A stretch of 64,000 bases of DNA from contig BGKB01000018.1 in assembly GCA_003116975.1 (NCBI GenBank), positions 682,001 through 746,000 on the forward strand, in the 5' to 3' direction. Shown here one piece after another: positions 52,411 to 61,561 of this stretch. This DNA is from Aurantiochytrium sp. KH105 (Eukaryota > Sar > Bigyra > Thraustochytrida > Thraustochytriidae). Under the pieces are notes generated by a model. That model had not been told where the DNA came from, ran no database searches, and saw only the letters and a program-made list of their open reading frames with translations. Position 1 is the stretch's first letter. Every line of letters starts with the position of its first letter. The translations under genes were made by a program, and so were the position numbers.

Positions 52411-54366
52411 TCATTGCACGAGCTTTGCGAGAACCTTGAGCCCTGGAGTGGCATCCTTGCCGGAAGTTGCCTTGAGAGCAGAGGCGCACGCTTTGTTTGA
52501 CTTGAGCTCTGCCTTGACTGCATCTGCCGTGTCCGGGTGCTCGACAAGTGCGACAAGGAGAAAGCACGCCGCGTTGACGCCGATCAGCGAGTCGACGCGG
52601 GGCTGAAGCAAATCCCAAAGGCGCTGTGCAAATCCTGCGCGATCATTTCCCTCGCGCGCTCCTTCGGCCACAATCAGACGCTTCAGTGTGCGCTGCTCCA
52701 AAGGCTTCTCTACAATTTCAGGCGCAGCCTTGACCACCTCGAGCAGTTCATCCATGAGTGAGGACGCCCAAGAGGCAGCCATGACCTCGACGAGAAGCTC
52801 TGCGCCATGCGGATGTGGGAGACTGGCCTCCACCGATCCTTCGAGCGCCTTTGCCAGAGGGAATGCCGTAGCGTCGCGGAGTTCAGAAACACGGGCCTCC
52901 GGGTCCTTTTTCGATGTGCCTGGCGCCGGTTGAATCGCCTCAAAGTCAACGCGACGAAAGTAACGATTCACCTTGGACGTCAACGTCTGCATGTACACCA
53001 GCCGTGCCGATGTTGTCGCGTCGGGCACCTGCACCGAGGCCACCAGCCTCTCGAGGACATTCTCCTCAAGAATTTCAGGAAGAATGCTCTTTTTCAGGAG
53101 CACGGTGTCATCAAGCACGTTGATGAGCGAAGCCAGAGCAAGAAAGCCAAACTCGTGAAAACACAGGTTCGCAGCATGACCCTTGAACACGCGAACGTAC
53201 TTTTTCCGCTCCTTGGCACTGGCGTGGGCGATGCAGCGTGCCACAGCGTATGCGCCATCCGCCGTCGAAATCATCGCCAGCGAGGCCTCCGCCACGAGCG
53301 GGACCAGCTCCGTAAGGATCGCGGTCTCTTCCGCGCTGCCCGCCTCCGCCTCTGCTGTGTCAGCATCGCCTTCGTCGTCGCCGCCCTTCTTTGCGGTCTT
53401 CGTTTTCGCCTTGGCCGCGCTGCCATCGTCGTCGCTGGTTTTCAACTCTGCGATATTGAGCTCGCACCTCTCGACGAGGGCACGCGCAATCGAGTGGGCA
53501 AAGCCGAGACGCAAGATGCCCTTTTCTGCCTGCTTCGTCACGATGCGATGCATGCTCGCCAGGGCTGCACGCCTGCGCTTCATGTTCAAGTTTGCGTACA
53601 TTTTGGCCTCTGTCGGCGCCGCGTCTGCGTTCTCTTGGCCGAAAATGGCGAACTCGGGGCCGCAGAATTCAAGTCGCAGCTTGCTCAGCACCGCCGGTAC
53701 GGACACTAAGACGGGCCCGGCGTCACCCGCGCCCTCATCGGAGGACTTGGCAGACTTCTTGGCCCGTTTCGCGGCGCGGCCACGCTTCGTCTTGGCCGCG
53801 TCCACATTGCAGTGCGTAAAGGCAAAGTCAAGCACGCGGGATCCGCAGTTGTGCGTCGCCAATCGCGACATGTGGCCGCGGAGCTCGTTAAGCACCTTGA
53901 CGCGTTGCGCGTCGCTACCATATCGAAGAAGTGCAATCACTAAAAAGCAAGAGTACTTGTCCTTGGAGAGCGAGACCATCTTGCCCTTGAGCTCCTCGAG
54001 GATGGACTCGCGCATCTCCTCGTTACCAAAACGGAAGCAAACCTGGACACTTCGGCAGGCGTCGTGCTTCATGGCAAACTTGAGCATGCGGCCCTTGAGC
54101 GAAGCATAAATCTCCTTCACCTCGGACCCGCGCTCCTCGTCCTCATCGTCTCGGAGCGCGGAAGCGGTGCGCTTGTTGAGCTCTTTGACGGTCTCGCTCA
54201 GGTCCTCGGCACCGCGGTTCTGAATCCACACGCCATCCTTGCTATGCTTGTCTAGCTTTTGCTGGCCCTCCTCGGCCTCGGGCTCCGTCTTCGCCTTCTT
54301 GCTCTTGCCCTTGGCCTTGTCGTCGCCCTTGCTTGTGGGCCGCTTCTTGGAGCCCTTCACGGCCAT
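52411..54366 (-). CDS. PUM3: PUM3/Puf6-family nucleolar Puf protein with CPL domain
   Basis: PUM3/Puf6 proteins bind structured RNA or DNA without strict sequence specificity and assist 60S ribosome assembly in the nucleolus. The product is 651 residues. It starts with a Lys-rich nucleolar-type tail (MAVKGSKKRPTSKG and KGKSKKAKTEPEAEEG). Puf-like helical repeats follow from about residue 90, including GRMLKFAMKHDACRSVQVCF, KDKYSCFLVIALLRYG and HNCGSRVLDFAF. The CPL-type region includes LTSKVNRYFRRVDFEAI at about 490. Two charged low-complexity inserts interrupt the repeats (KTKRGRAAKRAKKSAKSS and the Lys/Asp/Glu stretch near 340-370). The start is the ATG at 54364-54366. The longer open frame upstream reads through the promoter region shared with the TYW fusion gene. 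Confidence 0.88.
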   Translation of the reverse strand: MAVKGSKKRPTSKGDDKAKGKSKKAKTEPEAEEGQQKLDKHSKDGVWIQNRGAEDLSETVKELNKRTASALRDDEDEERGSEVKEIYASLKGRMLKFAMKHDACRSVQVCFRFGNEEMRESILEELKGKMVSLSKDKYSCFLVIALLRYGSDAQRVKVLNELRGHMSRLATHNCGSRVLDFAFTHCNVDAAKTKRGRAAKRAKKSAKSSDEGAGDAGPVLVSVPAVLSKLRLEFCGPEFAIFGQENADAAPTEAKMYANLNMKRRRAALASMHRIVTKQAEKGILRLGFAHSIARALVERCELNIAELKTSDDDGSAAKAKTKTAKKGGDDEGDADTAEAEAGSAEETAILTELVPLVAEASLAMISTADGAYAVARCIAHASAKERKKYVRVFKGHAANLCFHEFGFLALASLINVLDDTVLLKKSILPEILEENVLERLVASVQVPDATTSARLVYMQTLTSKVNRYFRRVDFEAIQPAPGTSKKDPEARVSELRDATAFPLAKALEGSVEASLPHPHGAELLVEVMAASWASSLMDELLEVVKAAPEIVEKPLEQRTLKRLIVAEGAREGNDRAGFAQRLWDLLQPRVDSLIGVNAACFLLVALVEHPDTADAVKAELKSNKACASALKATSGKDATPGLKVLAKLVQ

Positions 54367-54964
54367 TCTCGCCCGCTGCCTTGCCGCGAGCACCTTGTCT
54401 ACGTCGTCGCGACGCTTCTGACGCCGTTTCCACGCAAGCTCTTCGCGCAAGAAAGTCACCGCGCACCGCGTGCGCCAGGGGTTTGTTTCGTCCCGTCTCG
54501 TCTCGACTCGAGTCGCCTCGAGTCTTGTCGTCTCGTCTCCAGCTCCGGCGCGCCAAGCAAGACTCCCGCCACCCGTTCTGGCGCACCAACTATTCTGCAC
54601 TGGAGGACCGAATTCTTCACTTTGCAAGGTCTCGACAAGAGGAACTTTCCCAATTCTGCACTTGCACCAAATCAACTTGGGTTTATTCTCGCAGCATACA
54701 CCCCGGAGGCACTTCAAGCCCAATCCAAATGAAGGCAAACGAGGGGGGCTCCGGGGGACTCTGCGCATGGCCATTCGTGGGGATGCCAGGACGACGTAGA
54801 AAATAGCGAGGAAGGGAAGGACCTTGGCTGTCAGAACTCGCGGCACAGGCGCGCCTCGAGCAAAGGCAGCGCGGGAGAACGCGCGAGGGATCGAGGACAG
54901 ACATCGCTCGGACCCGAAAAAGGGCTTCTTCACGGTCGACGAAGCGTCATTCTCTCTCGCGGAG
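54367..54964. promoter_or_regulatory. Divergent promoter region between PUM3 and the TYW fusion gene
   Basis: This ~600-bp spacer lies between two head-to-head genes for RNA-maturation proteins. It contains a short CTCGT-type run near 54492-54516. The TYW frame is open through the last ~140 bp, but only from a non-ATG codon. No TATA-like box stands out. Confidence 0.45.
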
Positions 54965-57900
54965 ATGGCTCATGAGCTGGCGCTCGAGACCGCGTACTCG
55001 AGCTTGCAACATCAGAAGCAACAGTTTGACGCCTACAAGCGCAGCATCCTCGCCGAGCTAGCGGACGTGGGCACCGACGCGTACTCAGACAAGTCTCCAA
55101 AAGGGTCGCTGGATGCCGCGATTGTCGAGCTTGTGCGAGACATCAATGCAAGTCACGACTATGTCACGACGAGTTCCTGCTCCGGTCGAGTAAGTGTATT
55201 CTACGAAGGAGGCAGCAGTAGCACCAGCAGCGCTAGCCAAGATCCGCTCGAACCCAATCAAGAGTCTGATTTGCAAGCACCGCAGGCGCCCCGCAAGGGC
55301 CAGGGACGCTGGCTTGGTGTGAATCATGACCGCGCACTCTCACGTCAGGAAGTTCTCGATATGCTTGCGAGCGTGACTCCGCAACAAGGCGGCAGGGCCG
55401 TCCTCAAGCACGAACCCTTTGTTCTGCATGTCCAATGTAGGGACGAGCGCAGTGCGCAGGCCTTGCTTCGTGTCGCAATTGACAGCGGCCTGCGTGAATC
55501 TGGGCTTTCGTTGGGACAAAAGAAGATCATGCTTGGCATCCGGACGCTCTCAAATGTCCTCGAAGTCCCTGTTTTGGTGGACGGACGCCAAATTTTATCC
55601 GAAGACGCGCTCGGCGTCATGTGCGATGTGGCCGCCGAGAAGTTTCGCATTAATTGCGAACGCCGCGCCGCCTTCCACGCCAATGTCGCTGCTTTTCTTC
55701 GCAACGCCGACTCTTTGCCCATCCCCGAGTACCCTCGCTCCGATGCGAACGGATTGAGAACGTCGACGCAGAGCTTGAACCCGCAGCAGGAACGTCAGAA
55801 GGAGCGTAGGCGCCAAAAACAGGCCTCTCTTTCCCGTGCTCTCGAGTGGAAGGAAGTTGGGGCCGGCGCCGATCTCTTGCAGAGATGGGGACATGCGTCC
55901 GTGCCTCTCCCGGACGGGTCGGCCGCTTTGGTGTTTGGTGGATTTGGTCCATGCGATGGAACTTCACATGAACGGCGTAACGATCTCATTTTGGTGCGTC
56001 GGAACACGGAGGAGAATGGCAGCAGCTTTCTTTGCGAACGTCTCCAAGCCGGAGGAGAGCCTCCCTCGGCTCGCATCAAACACGCTGCGTGTTGGCTTGA
56101 CGCAAGTCACGCGTTGTGCATTTCTGGCGGTCGTCAGTCTCCTCTTAAGGCGCTTAGTGACCTTGCGCTTTTTCATTATGATCAATGCCGCTGGGTTCCA
56201 GTCCAGTCATCGGGCGCATGGACACCGCGTTGGAGTCATACCATGGTCACTGCTGGTGAGCACGCCATTATTTTTGGTGGGCGCGATGCCAAGAGCGTGA
56301 TGAGCGATACAATCATGATCACGACCCAGGATGCCAGCGCCAAGGTGTCCTTGCTCGAGTGCCATGGCGGGGCTTCTGTGGTAGGTCGATTTGGTCACTC
56401 GGCCGTTACGACGAACCAAGGAGACAAAATGGTCATATATGGCGGCTACGCGAGAGTGGGCGAGAATGACGACGACGAAGCTGTTCCTACGCAACACATG
56501 CTTGGCGACGTCCAGGTTCTCGAACTCTCAACCCTCACTTGGTCAACGGTGTGCGCGCATAGTCCGAGCTCCTCTAGATTTTCGCACGGGGCTGTAGCAC
56601 TGGACGATGACCGCATGCTCGTTGTTGGCGGCGTTGGCATCGAGTACCGCGACAATGGGGCGAAACTTTTGACGCTGTCGACGGGTCAATGGGACGTTGT
56701 CCGGTCCTCCGAAACGTATGGCGCGTCGTGGGCTCCGCAAGCGATGCAGCAAAAGTTCAGCCTCATCAAGCTGCAGCAGGGCTCGCAGCTCGACTTGCTC
56801 TCGCTGGGAGGCGGTAATCTCTGCTTCTCTTTTGGCTTTTGCTTTGGCAAGTCGTCGCATGCCGATGCGAGCTGGATGCTCACGCACGATTTTGCGCCCG
56901 ACGCACTCGCGATTGAGGCCAGTGAGGCAAAGGGCGCCAAAGTTTGTCTCGAAAAGGCAAAGCTGTACGACCGCTCACGCAAGATCGTTCCGTACTTGCA
57001 CAATGGGCGTGCTGCCCTTATGGCAATTCCCGTCCCACGAGATGCAATTGCGCGGGTCGAAGCGCTCATTCAGGACGGACAGCTCGGTGCCGCCAACCTT
57101 GTTCACTGTCCTGCACCCCCTTTAAAGAACGGCGCCGGCCCCGCCGCATCCACCGTCGCCGCGGCCAAGGCTGAGAACACATCAGCCTCTGTAAAGCCCC
57201 AGAAAAAGACTGAGAAACCGAAGAGTGTGCCGAACAAAGAATCGCAAGTCAAATCAAAGGCTTCAGACGCGACAATTGCCGGATTGGGCGTCAGTGTTGC
57301 GGCATCTGCATGCAAATTGTGCAAGTCGGCCTTGGAGCAAGCTGGCCTGTATGACAAAAGCCGGCGCGTAGGGAAACTGGCGAGTGGCATGATGGGCGTT
57401 CCCGTGCGGGGCTCGCTCGAGGCTGCAGTCGCTGCTTTGGCCTCGGTAGGTGTGGAACCCGCAGAAACCTCGTCCAGCATGATGCTCCCGTGCTCGCCCG
57501 TTCCGAAGCAACAACTTGGGTCCAAAAAGGCGCGCGCTGCCAATGGAAACAGCCGGCGAGCTGGTATCAAGGAGCAACTTCGGGTGTGGGTCGAGGGCCT
57601 CGTCACTCGCTCGCCGAGCCTCGAGCTCCCCTCGGCCGAAGTAATGCGAAGTGAACTCCCAAAGCGCGTCGAGGTCTTGGGGGATGTAGCAATTGTGCCT
57701 CGAGAAGCCTTCCGCACCGACCAAATCTGGGCGCCCATCGTTAACGCCGGTGAGGAGCGCGTTCAAGACTGTCTTTGGGCCATGATTGCTTCATTGACAG
57801 GTGCCAAGCGCGTTCTGTTGCAGCGCAAGATTGACACAGGCGTGAAAAGACAAAGTCGTGCCACCATGGTCTATCCACGACAGCATCCCGACACCGCGGT

Positions 57901-59539
57901 CATTGTCAAGCAGAACGGTGTCACATATTGGTTTGACATGGAACGGTGTATGTTTTCGTCGGGCAACATTTCCGAAAAGCAGCGTGTGGCCAAATTTCCA
58001 TGCCGCGGTGAGGTCGTTGTTGACATGTTCGCAGGCATTGGGTACTTTACGTTGCCCTATCTGGTCAAGGCGGGCGTGGCGCATTTGCATGCTTGTGAGT
58101 GGAACGCCGATGCACTCGCAGCGCTGCGCAAAAACCTTGCGTTGAACAGCGTTGAGGACCGCTGCACCGTCTATGCCGGGGATTGTCGTGTCTCTGTGGA
58201 GAAGTCGCTCCGCGGCATCGCAGACCGCGTGAATCTTGGACTTATTCCGTCGTCTCGGCCATTTTGGCCAACGGGGGTCCAGGCATTGCACGAGAGTCGG
58301 GGTGGCTGGCTTCATATTCACGAGAACGTTGTTCGCAAGGAATGCGACGCCTTTGTCAAGGACATGCTGGCCGAGATTCAGACTCTTCTTCCCGAGGGCT
58401 GGACGGCAACGTGTAACCATGTGGAGCGCGTCAAGTCGTACAGCCCGCACGTAGATCACATTGTCGCAGATGTTCGCTGCGGGCCAATTGATGAATTGAA
58501 CGCCGGCGAACTTCAGGGCGGGGGCGCCTCGTCTCAGATTGCATCAGGAGAGCTTTCTCGTGTTTTGCGTGTGCCAACGAGCGATGAACGCGGTCCGTTG
58601 CCAGTGATCCGACGTCCATACCCCAGGAGCGCCCTGGAGGCGCAGGAGATTATGGCAATGGATAGACCTGTTGTCCTCACTGGCATCCCATCATGGTCAT
58701 CATCATTTTGGAAGCTGGGGGCCTTGCAGGAGTTCTGCACAAGTCACACTGACACTGGCAACACCAAGGTGAGCGTTCACGTCGCTGATGATGCGCACTT
58801 GAGTTTTGTGAACAAGTCCTTTCGGTTCCAGGTTACTGAACTGCAAGCGCTTCTACATGCCGTCGCGCAGAACGACGCCAAGCCCATGTACCTTCGCGCA
58901 GTCGGTCCAAACCCGCGCAAAGATCGTGCGCAATTTTGGCGTGATTTTGCAGAGCTGGCTAAGGCGTCTGGTCTGGTCCAACCCGACGAGTTTGTCGATG
59001 GTGATCGCACGAAAATCTTCTCGTCTGTTTTTCGTGTGGCTTCTGCCGGTCTGCAGCTCTGGACTCACTTTGATGTAATGGCAAACGTCCTTTACCAGCT
59101 GCATGGCTCAAAGCGCGTTGTTCTCTTTCGTCCCGAGGACGTTGGGTGCCTCGACATGCGGCAAAGCGTGAGCGCGGTGGTGGACATTGATAGTCAGCCG
59201 TCCGACAGTCTTTTTGGTCAGGCTCGTGCCCGAGCCATGGAAGTCCATCTTGAAGCCGGGGAGGCTCTCTATATTCCAGCACTCTGGCCTCACAATGCAC
59301 GGGCCAAGACAGCAAGTGTGGCTGTCAATGTGTTTTGGCGGTCCCTTGACACGAGCTTTTACGGCGCCAAAGATCTCTACGGAAACCGAGATCCCCTGCC
59401 CGCGGAGCGAGCTCTTGCTCTCGTCCAAGAGGCCAGCGATCTTTTGGGCGCAGCGCAAGACAATGGCAATGTTCTGCCCTGGCAATTCCGTCAATTTTAC
59501 GCACACATTGCCGCCGGGAAGTTATTGCAAAATGCATAG
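54965..59539 (+). CDS. TYW3-kelch-TYW2-TYW5 fusion: multi-step wybutosine synthesis protein
   Basis: This encodes 1524 residues in one frame and makes the modified guanosine at position 37 of tRNA-Phe. Domains in order: (1) TYW3, about 20-260, with DKSPKGSLDAAI and YVTTSSCSGR; it methylates yW-86 to yW-72. (2) A kelch propeller, about 305-620 (repeats with VFGGFG, IIFGGRD, VIYGGY), as in plant TYW2/3 and fungal TYW4. (3) Two copies of an LYD(R/K)SRK module (~660 and ~785), then TYW2, about 870-1170, with SAM motif VVDMFAGIGYFTLPY and NLGLIPSS, which marks TYW2 rather than Trm5; it transfers the aminocarboxypropyl group from SAM. (4) A TYW5-type JmjC Fe/2-oxoglutarate hydroxylase, about 1200-1524, with FSSVFRVASAGLQLWTHFD and iron ligands H1368, D1370 and H1443. 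The first in-frame ATG is at 54965. TYW1 and the TYW4 methyltransferase are not here. Confidence 0.93.
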   Translation: MAHELALETAYSSLQHQKQQFDAYKRSILAELADVGTDAYSDKSPKGSLDAAIVELVRDINASHDYVTTSSCSGRVSVFYEGGSSSTSSASQDPLEPNQESDLQAPQAPRKGQGRWLGVNHDRALSRQEVLDMLASVTPQQGGRAVLKHEPFVLHVQCRDERSAQALLRVAIDSGLRESGLSLGQKKIMLGIRTLSNVLEVPVLVDGRQILSEDALGVMCDVAAEKFRINCERRAAFHANVAAFLRNADSLPIPEYPRSDANGLRTSTQSLNPQQERQKERRRQKQASLSRALEWKEVGAGADLLQRWGHASVPLPDGSAALVFGGFGPCDGTSHERRNDLILVRRNTEENGSSFLCERLQAGGEPPSARIKHAACWLDASHALCISGGRQSPLKALSDLALFHYDQCRWVPVQSSGAWTPRWSHTMVTAGEHAIIFGGRDAKSVMSDTIMITTQDASAKVSLLECHGGASVVGRFGHSAVTTNQGDKMVIYGGYARVGENDDDEAVPTQHMLGDVQVLELSTLTWSTVCAHSPSSSRFSHGAVALDDDRMLVVGGVGIEYRDNGAKLLTLSTGQWDVVRSSETYGASWAPQAMQQKFSLIKLQQGSQLDLLSLGGGNLCFSFGFCFGKSSHADASWMLTHDFAPDALAIEASEAKGAKVCLEKAKLYDRSRKIVPYLHNGRAALMAIPVPRDAIARVEALIQDGQLGAANLVHCPAPPLKNGAGPAASTVAAAKAENTSASVKPQKKTEKPKSVPNKESQVKSKASDATIAGLGVSVAASACKLCKSALEQAGLYDKSRRVGKLASGMMGVPVRGSLEAAVAALASVGVEPAETSSSMMLPCSPVPKQQLGSKKARAANGNSRRAGIKEQLRVWVEGLVTRSPSLELPSAEVMRSELPKRVEVLGDVAIVPREAFRTDQIWAPIVNAGEERVQDCLWAMIASLTGAKRVLLQRKIDTGVKRQSRATMVYPRQHPDTAVIVKQNGVTYWFDMERCMFSSGNISEKQRVAKFPCRGEVVVDMFAGIGYFTLPYLVKAGVAHLHACEWNADALAALRKNLALNSVEDRCTVYAGDCRVSVEKSLRGIADRVNLGLIPSSRPFWPTGVQALHESRGGWLHIHENVVRKECDAFVKDMLAEIQTLLPEGWTATCNHVERVKSYSPHVDHIVADVRCGPIDELNAGELQGGGASSQIASGELSRVLRVPTSDERGPLPVIRRPYPRSALEAQEIMAMDRPVVLTGIPSWSSSFWKLGALQEFCTSHTDTGNTKVSVHVADDAHLSFVNKSFRFQVTELQALLHAVAQNDAKPMYLRAVGPNPRKDRAQFWRDFAELAKASGLVQPDEFVDGDRTKIFSSVFRVASAGLQLWTHFDVMANVLYQLHGSKRVVLFRPEDVGCLDMRQSVSAVVDIDSQPSDSLFGQARARAMEVHLEAGEALYIPALWPHNARAKTASVAVNVFWRSLDTSFYGAKDLYGNRDPLPAERALALVQEASDLLGAAQDNGNVLPWQFRQFYAHIAAGKLLQNA

Positions 59540-59818: not shown

Positions 59819-61066
59819 TTAAAACCAGTCGTCATAGCTGGTGTGGTCCGAAATGGAAGTCGAAAAGCCTGGCTTGTCACGACCTTCGTCGCCGTTGGAG
59901 TTCTTGTTCGTTCCAAAGTGCTTGTAACCCATCCAGCCGTACGGCACACTGGGCACGATATCGTCGTCGTGAACAAAACGCAATTGTGTGAACTGGCCAT
60001 GGATCTCATCAGAAAGGTCGTCAGAAAGCACGCGCGGCGAACCAAAGGTGACAAGAACCATTCGGCTCGTCTCCCAAAGACCATCCTTGTAGACGGCGTA
60101 GGCAAAGGCGTTCATGATCCCACCACCACGGCTGTAGCCATTAAGAATCAGACGGTCGTTCGAGCTGCAAGTCGAGCTAATTTGGCTCCAGATACTGAGC
60201 CGCATGTTATTGTGCGGCTTGACAAAGCCATCATATCCGTTCGAGTACGACTTGTACGTCGTGCAGGTCTTGTACTTCGAGCACCACCACCACGTGTATT
60301 TGGCACATCCACAGCTTTCGTCACGAATACTGTACGTGGCGATACTCTTGATGTCTTCGTCGCCGACGTCAAGATTGTCGAGCCAATCAGCAATATCACC
60401 CGTTGCTTGGGCGGTCACCCAACATGCGTATCCTGATGTCGAGCCAGAGGTGCCAAAGGCGGTGTCGCTTTTGCGAAGAACGAGGACAGCGTCGTTCTCG
60501 TAGGAAACGCCACCACTGTATCCCAAAGTTTCGGCTTCCTCGACTACAGCCCAAGCTGTTGCGCCAATCGTCTGCTGCGTCGAGGTGAGAGCCAACTGCC
60601 GGTAGCGATTAAAGTTCTCTTCTTTGCTGCTTGCACGCAGCGAACGAACCTCGCCCTGCTCGTCGTCGCGCAGAGTCTTGAGGGCGCTCATGATGTCGGA
60701 GGTCATGAACTGGTCATCCCAGTCATCAGACTCTTCGTAGGCGTCAATGAGCTCGTTGATCTGCGAAATGGTCAGGTTTTGGGTGAAGGCGATGTTGGTC
60801 TCATTTTTGAAGGCGCTTCGGAGCGTGACCTGTGCTTGCGCAACGGCCGTCTCGGTCACGGTGTCGGTATTCTCCGAGGTCGACGTTGAAGAGGAGGAGG
60901 CCTGGCCCGCCACGAAGCCAACGCCGGCGGCAACACCGACCACTCCGAGGGCAATGAAGGACTTGAGCGCGAGCTGTTTCCAGTTGCGGCCGCTCTTGGG
61001 TTCTTCAATCTCGACGTGTTGCGTCACATCGCCGGCGAAAGCGGGATTCTGGGTGGAAACCTGCAT
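59819..61066 (-). CDS. Class 3 lipase-like alpha/beta hydrolase, N-terminal membrane anchor (copy 1)
   Basis: This encodes 415 residues. A short N-terminal segment (1-30) precedes a hydrophobic anchor at about 31-55 (LKSFIALGVVGVAAGVGFVAG), suggesting a type II membrane protein with a lumenal or extracellular catalytic domain. N-glycosylation sequons NET and NLT just after it agree. The nucleophile elbow is GYSRGGG, Ser at about residue 311. An Asp in HDDDIVPSVP and a C-terminal His in DHTSYDDWF complete the expected class 3 triad. A Cys/Trp-rich insert (SCGCAKYTWWWCSKYKTC) sits before the core. The substrate is unknown; an acylglycerol or phospholipid is likely from family membership. The start was set at the ATG at 61064-61066, because the neighbouring paralogue begins with the same MQVS-x-NPAF wording. 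An ATG 16 codons upstream is possible. Confidence 0.82.
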   Translation of the reverse strand: MQVSTQNPAFAGDVTQHVEIEEPKSGRNWKQLALKSFIALGVVGVAAGVGFVAGQASSSSTSTSENTDTVTETAVAQAQVTLRSAFKNETNIAFTQNLTISQINELIDAYEESDDWDDQFMTSDIMSALKTLRDDEQGEVRSLRASSKEENFNRYRQLALTSTQQTIGATAWAVVEEAETLGYSGGVSYENDAVLVLRKSDTAFGTSGSTSGYACWVTAQATGDIADWLDNLDVGDEDIKSIATYSIRDESCGCAKYTWWWCSKYKTCTTYKSYSNGYDGFVKPHNNMRLSIWSQISSTCSSNDRLILNGYSRGGGIMNAFAYAVYKDGLWETSRMVLVTFGSPRVLSDDLSDEIHGQFTQLRFVHDDDIVPSVPYGWMGYKHFGTNKNSNGDEGRDKPGFSTSISDHTSYDDWF

Positions 61067-61561
61067 GTTCGTCAGCAATGCTGCTCTCTTTTGATACTTG
61101 GTTCTTTGCTTCACTGGTCGGTTTGGGGTTTGCGGTTTGAAGTTTGCTTTGTTTTCCTCTGCTGATCGTTCGACAAGCGACAGCGCTTAAGCCCTTCTTT
61201 GCAAGGTCGCGTCTGTATTCCTCCTTGTCCTGATGTATGAATGGTATGTTTGGTTTGCTTTAGCGATTCAGAGCCTAGTGGCACCTGGCATGATTCCGCA
61301 TCTTGCTTGGTGCCATGAAGCGTCGACTTCCTTCCTTCGCAGCCTGGCACGAGCCCGTTCTTTGCCTGCGTCCCTGAGAGGACAGAGAATCATCGCTACC
61401 TATGAACGACGGATGTAGTGGTACGAGGCCTACTAGGCCTATGTATGAATGGGTTGGAGTGATCCAGACAAGACCCGGCCGGCCCACTTGACAAAGGCCA
61501 AAAGCCAGATTCGCTCAAAGTACGTCTGGCTTATGGCCGCGTTGAGCTGAGCTGTGCGTTG

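Follow-up and report, generated by a model that had tools for sequence, protein, structure and literature searches.

Does this locus encode, in a single polypeptide, three consecutive enzymes of the wybutosine pathway, and if it does, where would the pathway end? The original prediction for the window (the whole stretch of 64,000 nucleotides that was analysed) was that TYW3, kelch, TYW2 and a TYW5-type hydroxylase are all carried by one chain. This was borne out by the Pfam search, in which TYW3, kelch, TRM5-TYW2_MTfase and Cupin_8 follow each other in this order within a single open frame, each above its curated cut-off. As a feature of the sequence the four-part fusion is real, and the support for it is good. 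Judged from its domains, its architecture is a plant-type TYW3-kelch-TYW2 chain, with that order kept in a single frame, extended by the next enzyme, TYW5.

The reading frame and its TYW3, kelch and TYW2 parts

The complete frame of the four-part protein lies at 54965..59539 on the + strand, as do all the parts described below, and consists of 1,524 codons plus the stop, running from the ATG at 54965 to the stop at 59539 without any internal stop. By its length the protein would be of roughly 165 kDa. A chance frame was ruled out, the probability of 1,524 open codons in a random stretch of equal base composition being about 2e-25. Residue numbers are those of protein P0001, which is counted from 54824, and 47 has to be subtracted from them to obtain the numbering of the original prediction. 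The 47 codons ahead of 54965 hold one synonymous and five non-synonymous differences from a second copy of the gene on contig C11, and no ATG occurs in this interval of the window frame, which makes 54965 a fair start. The C11 copy has an additional in-frame ATG farther upstream.

Two neighbouring frames lie on the - strand. The frame at 52411-54933, which carries a CPL domain besides PUF repeats, is near the fusion gene and divergent from it, and we take it to be PUM3/Puf6-like. A class 3 lipase frame (59819-61114) is found downstream of the fusion gene and is convergent with it.

The TYW3 domain (residues 72-288, 55037..55687) matches PF02676 with an E value of 2.3e-48 and 164.8 bits over positions 3-209 of the 211 in the profile, that is, at nearly full length. 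Against structures of archaeal homologues this part reaches 46.9 bits at best, with the TTSSCSGR stretch aligned. It is followed by the kelch propeller (residues 356-603, 55889..56632; PF24681, E 6.2e-45). The interval between kelch and TYW2 appears to hold a duplicated TYW2_N-like unit of about 50 residues. The first unit (residues 702-752, 56927..57079) was recognised by its similarity to the second and has no Pfam match, and a search for TYW2_N in 56891-57223 gave none. The second (residues 827-876, 57302..57451) carries a match to PF25132 (TYW2_N) at residues 832-865 with an E value of 1.3e-4 and 22.6 bits, which is under the cut-off of 27.8. The duplication is suggested by this sub-threshold match together with the relatedness of the units, which score 63 against each other compared with a maximum of 44 in 2,000 shuffles.

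The TYW2 catalytic part (residues 933-1218, 57620..58477) contains PF02475 at residues 1027-1169 (E 3.6e-28) and over its whole length matches the archaeal Taw2 model NF047823 (E 2.7e-28), under the curated cut-off; the NCBIfam models for TYW2 and TYW3 are archaeal, and every NCBIfam match of the fusion protein is under its cut-off. As archaeal TYW2 structures were matched with 85.5 bits and Trm5b with 47.0, TYW2 rather than Trm5 is indicated. The chain was also predicted to be devoid of a TYW4 methyltransferase domain and indeed PF04072 (LCM) was not found in the fusion protein at E values up to 1.

The TYW5-type domain and its junction with TYW2

The C-terminal part of the protein (residues 1270-1561, 58631..59506) is a TYW5-type JmjC 2-oxoglutarate oxygenase by its match to human TYW5 (PDB 3al5; 164.6 bits, E 3.5e-47), and Cupin_8 was found at residues 1270-1509 with an E value of 5.8e-31, above the Pfam cut-off. 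Human TYW5 heads the 37 PDB sequences matched at E values up to 10, the runner-up having 28.7 bits, and is about 40% identical to the JmjC part over 280 residues. The residues H1415-x-D1417 (59066..59074) and H1490 (59291..59293) align in register with the H, D and H of human TYW5. They are the H1368, D1370 and H1443 proposed at first as iron ligands, a function which, from knowledge of the family, we also presume.

When the human TYW5 letters taken from this PDB alignment were searched against the genome, the two copies of the fusion gene obtained 162.4 and 161.9 bits and the other 34 places (E up to 1) 47.2 bits or less. A separate TYW5 gene, for which a search had been proposed, was rejected, since the best place outside the fusion, at 47.2 bits, matches over 100 residues. 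A tree was built from 23 rows, namely both fusion copies, human TYW5 and a sample of 20 from the 57 Cupin_8 places outside the fusion gene, 37 being omitted. In it human TYW5 groups with both fusion copies with a support of 98/95 and in 98% of 200 bootstrap trees, although the program flags long branches meeting at several places, the human row is long and the sampling is poor. The domain was therefore not placed outside the TYW5 clade, an outcome that would have spoken against the prediction. Human TYW5 is the sole outside TYW5 in this comparison, which cannot part TYW5 proper from a TYW4-type JmjC tail. Within these bounds the TYW5-like character of the domain is supported, the sequence being nearer to TYW5 than to the other JmjC families compared.

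The domain might instead be a recruited protein hydroxylase of the JMJD5, JMJD7 or FIH type, families which have the same fold and give weak matches to the JmjC part (28.7 bits or less). We consider this highly improbable in view of the 164.6 bits obtained with human TYW5, the grouping in the tree and the lead of 115 bits by which the fusion copies head the reverse search; a JMJD5/FIH-type domain was rejected on the first two of these.

The second copy allows the integrity of the chain to be examined. In the assembly (76 Mb, 367 contigs) a frame of 1,605 codons on C11 has a layout identical to that of the window fusion, which is on C18. The order of an LCM place, TYW3 and a kelch gene is collinear on the two contigs (655264, 737037 and 793204 on C18; 56504, 138307 and 193494 on C11), and around the fusion gene they are 96.1% identical in an alignment of 7,649 positions. 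Matches in the assembly are paired for other families too (one pair each for TYW3 and TYW1, three for PF02475 and four for LCM). From these sequences C18 and C11 are very likely two haplotypes.

Over residues 48-1571 the copies differ at 110 synonymous and 57 non-synonymous sites, giving a Ka/Ks of 0.15. By part, the ratio is 0.21 for TYW3, 0.15 for kelch, 0.18 for the stretch up to TYW2, 0.14 for TYW2 and 0.09 for the TYW5 part (residues 1269-1571). The comparison of the copies shows selection spanning the entire frame, the ratio of each part of residues 48-1571 lying within the range 0.09 to 0.24.

The highest of these values, 0.24, belongs to the linker between TYW2 and TYW5, an open stretch of about 50 residues without Met (58478..58627), and was obtained from five changes in residues 1226-1268. 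The linker also holds the only indel between the copies in residues 48-1571. Both observations would fit a locus that yields two proteins, with TYW5 parted from TYW3-kelch-TYW2 by an intron, an internal promoter or cleavage. Nevertheless both copies are open here and the indel is of one whole codon. Moreover, residues 1181 and 1277 enclose a stretch that is devoid of Met in both copies, so that a separate TYW5 would begin within its own core. As the frame continues across the junction in the C11 copy and the TYW5 core is not preceded by a Met belonging to TYW5, a hidden intron parting two genes, foreseen as a reason to abandon the prediction, is unlikely, and for production of two proteins by any of these routes we see little probability, though proteolysis might still occur.

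Other pathway genes and the end product

With a single chain as the preferred reading, it is highly probable on sequence grounds that one protein carries three consecutive activities acting on position 37 of tRNA-Phe, from imG-14 to OHyW*. Trm5 and TYW1, encoded elsewhere, would produce imG-14; the TYW2 part would attach the aminocarboxypropyl group to give yW-86, the TYW3 part would methylate N4 to give yW-72, and the TYW5 part would hydroxylate the side chain by means of Fe(II), O2 and 2-oxoglutarate, giving OHyW* (OHyW-72). The kelch propeller would most likely be a scaffold or a tRNA-docking part, and the plant chain may be alike in this. We infer each enzymatic activity, the hand-over of the tRNA within the chain and OHyW* as the end product.

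The remaining genes of such a pathway were sought in the assembly. A separate TYW1 candidate, the search for which was among the proposed checks, was found on C14 and C289 by the profile search, and the C14 member of the pair, which was scanned, has flavodoxin, radical SAM and Wyosine_form domains in Pfam. A Trm5 candidate pair is located on C93 and C31, the best NCBIfam model for the C93 member being Trm5b, under an archaeal cut-off. This pair accounts for two of the six PF02475 matches in the genome, the others being the two fusion copies and two weak matches of about 33 bits. Both TYW3 matches in the genome are the fusion copies, as are two of the 36 TYW5 matches, and no further TYW2, TYW3 or TYW5 was recognised in the assembly-wide search. 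The anticodon arm of tRNA-Phe, with GAA and G37, was found exactly at 10 of 31 places having up to two mismatches (the reversed control gave 5), and ARAGORN reported tRNA-Phe(gaa) in all six of these ten loci that were scanned. Relatives were confirmed neither among 26 pattern matches in genome_contigs nor among 71 and 5 in viral_contigs, as expected for a eukaryotic gene.

Elsewhere in the genome the PfaA fatty-acid synthase model gave 24 matches, the best of 930 bits and none above the cut-off of 1,010; it also matches in 11 of 14 control genomes, never above the cut-off. Among the matches are divergently oriented frames on C72 and likewise on C155. Viewed beside the known Schizochytrium cluster, these matches suggest a thraustochytrid as the source, though short of proof. 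C27 and C56 carry open frames of 5,708 codons (about 303600-314700) and 5,831 codons (about 295300-306400), respectively, which match one part of the PfaA profile several times and are perhaps a modular polyketide synthase.

The end product depends on TYW4. In PMC7694415, TYW4 and TYW5 hydroxylate yW-72, and the resulting OHyW* is converted into OHyW by TYW4; PMC4682802 assigns the hydroxylation to TYW5 and the remaining steps to TYW4. The original prediction let the pathway stop at OHyW-72 unless TYW4 exists elsewhere, and none was recognised genome-wide in this draft assembly; the search ignored introns and hence gives no proof of absence, and an LCM gene on C37 and C105 leaves some doubt. 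It belongs to the eight LCM places of the genome, which form four gene pairs. Both pieces of the C37 gene match human LCMT1 best (75.1 bits for the first, 92.2 for the second), but yeast TYW4 is near or above yeast PPM1 (56.2 against 60.5 bits for the second piece, 32.7 against 23.2 or less for the first), so these yeast scores do not cleanly separate LCMT1 from TYW4 and are not decisive.

It is quite possible, if somewhat short of an even chance, that the fusion is real and that ordinary OHyW is nevertheless made, either by a TYW4 that went unseen (through introns, divergence or a gap in the assembly) or by one of the LCM genes, perhaps acting with the kelch of the fusion chain. Besides the number of LCM places and the yeast scores, this reading draws on the DEFEEWH wording of the C37/C105 gene, which may resemble that of TYW4, and on the PDB matches of the C37 gene, which included no human TYW4 structure. 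In T. brucei and Aspergillus, moreover, a TYW5 domain is joined to TYW4, as stated in PMC4417183. The reading is opposed by the LCMT1 matches, by the other three LCM pairs, which match TIGR00027 (one copy of each scanned; two above the cut-off, one below), and by the kelch places, at least 82 with one model, since each of the 82 is separated from any LCM place by more than 50 kb.

Because the C37/C105 gene is not firmly LCMT1, OHyW* as the end product is uncertain, and hydroxylated yW-72 is, from the genes recognised, perhaps where the pathway stops. The fullest form of the proposal, a eukaryote free of TYW4 in which one chain leads from imG-14 to OHyW*, holds tRNA-Phe through three reactions and leaves OHyW* as the natural mature base, is put forward tentatively and we would sooner doubt it than rely on it. 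If TYW4 were truly absent, the organism would reveal the decoding role of an undermodified, hydroxylated base. The fusion of three consecutive steps in any case makes the order of action, the hand-over of the tRNA and the role of kelch testable in a single protein.

Comparison with known systems

The novelty of the four-part combination is not established: its parts are known, and their joining was not found in the available text of the openly licensed literature searched (CC0, CC BY, CC BY-SA). In that literature nothing was found on wybutosine in thraustochytrids, and the portions available of PMC3386263, PMC3765361 and PMC5851275 do not describe such a fusion. TYW5 beyond animals is not new, as a gene named TYW5 is mentioned for a chrysophyte, a stramenopile (PMC10582637), and a putative TYW5 alongside TYW2/3/4 for coconut (PMC10298058). 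OHyW is reported in T. cruzi (PMC13210174).

The closest layout is that of Arabidopsis At4g04670, tabulated as Tyw3+Tyw4c+Tyw2 in PMC2956550, a study in which wybutosine was undetected in this plant. TYW3 and TYW2 are likewise in one chain with a TYW4 part between them, whereas no TYW5/JmjC part appears in that table. Tyw4c is in our reading the kelch propeller, a word which the corresponding text of PMC2956550 does not use.

The original prediction also had fungal TYW4 carry a kelch/JmjC tail. The pairing of TYW4 with TYW5 stood for Aspergillus oryzae, to which the TYW5-like extension of Trypanosoma brucei TYW4 is likened in PMC4417183, but it is not general, as TYW5 is absent from Saccharomyces cerevisiae according to the same source; yeast TYW4 was missing among the 37 PDB sequences matched by the JmjC part. 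These TYW4-TYW5 proteins are like the window fusion in that a TYW5-like JmjC is joined to a wybutosine enzyme. In them, however, the JmjC extends TYW4 (PMC4417183), whereas here it comes after TYW2 and no TYW4 was recognised. The window fusion is an instance of TYW5 being linked to the pathway otherwise than through TYW4. Human TYW5 (C2orf60), to which the domain is alike in sequence and in the HxD...H residues, is TYW5 alone in its PDB chain of 338 residues, whereas in the window TYW5 forms the C-terminal portion of a long polypeptide.
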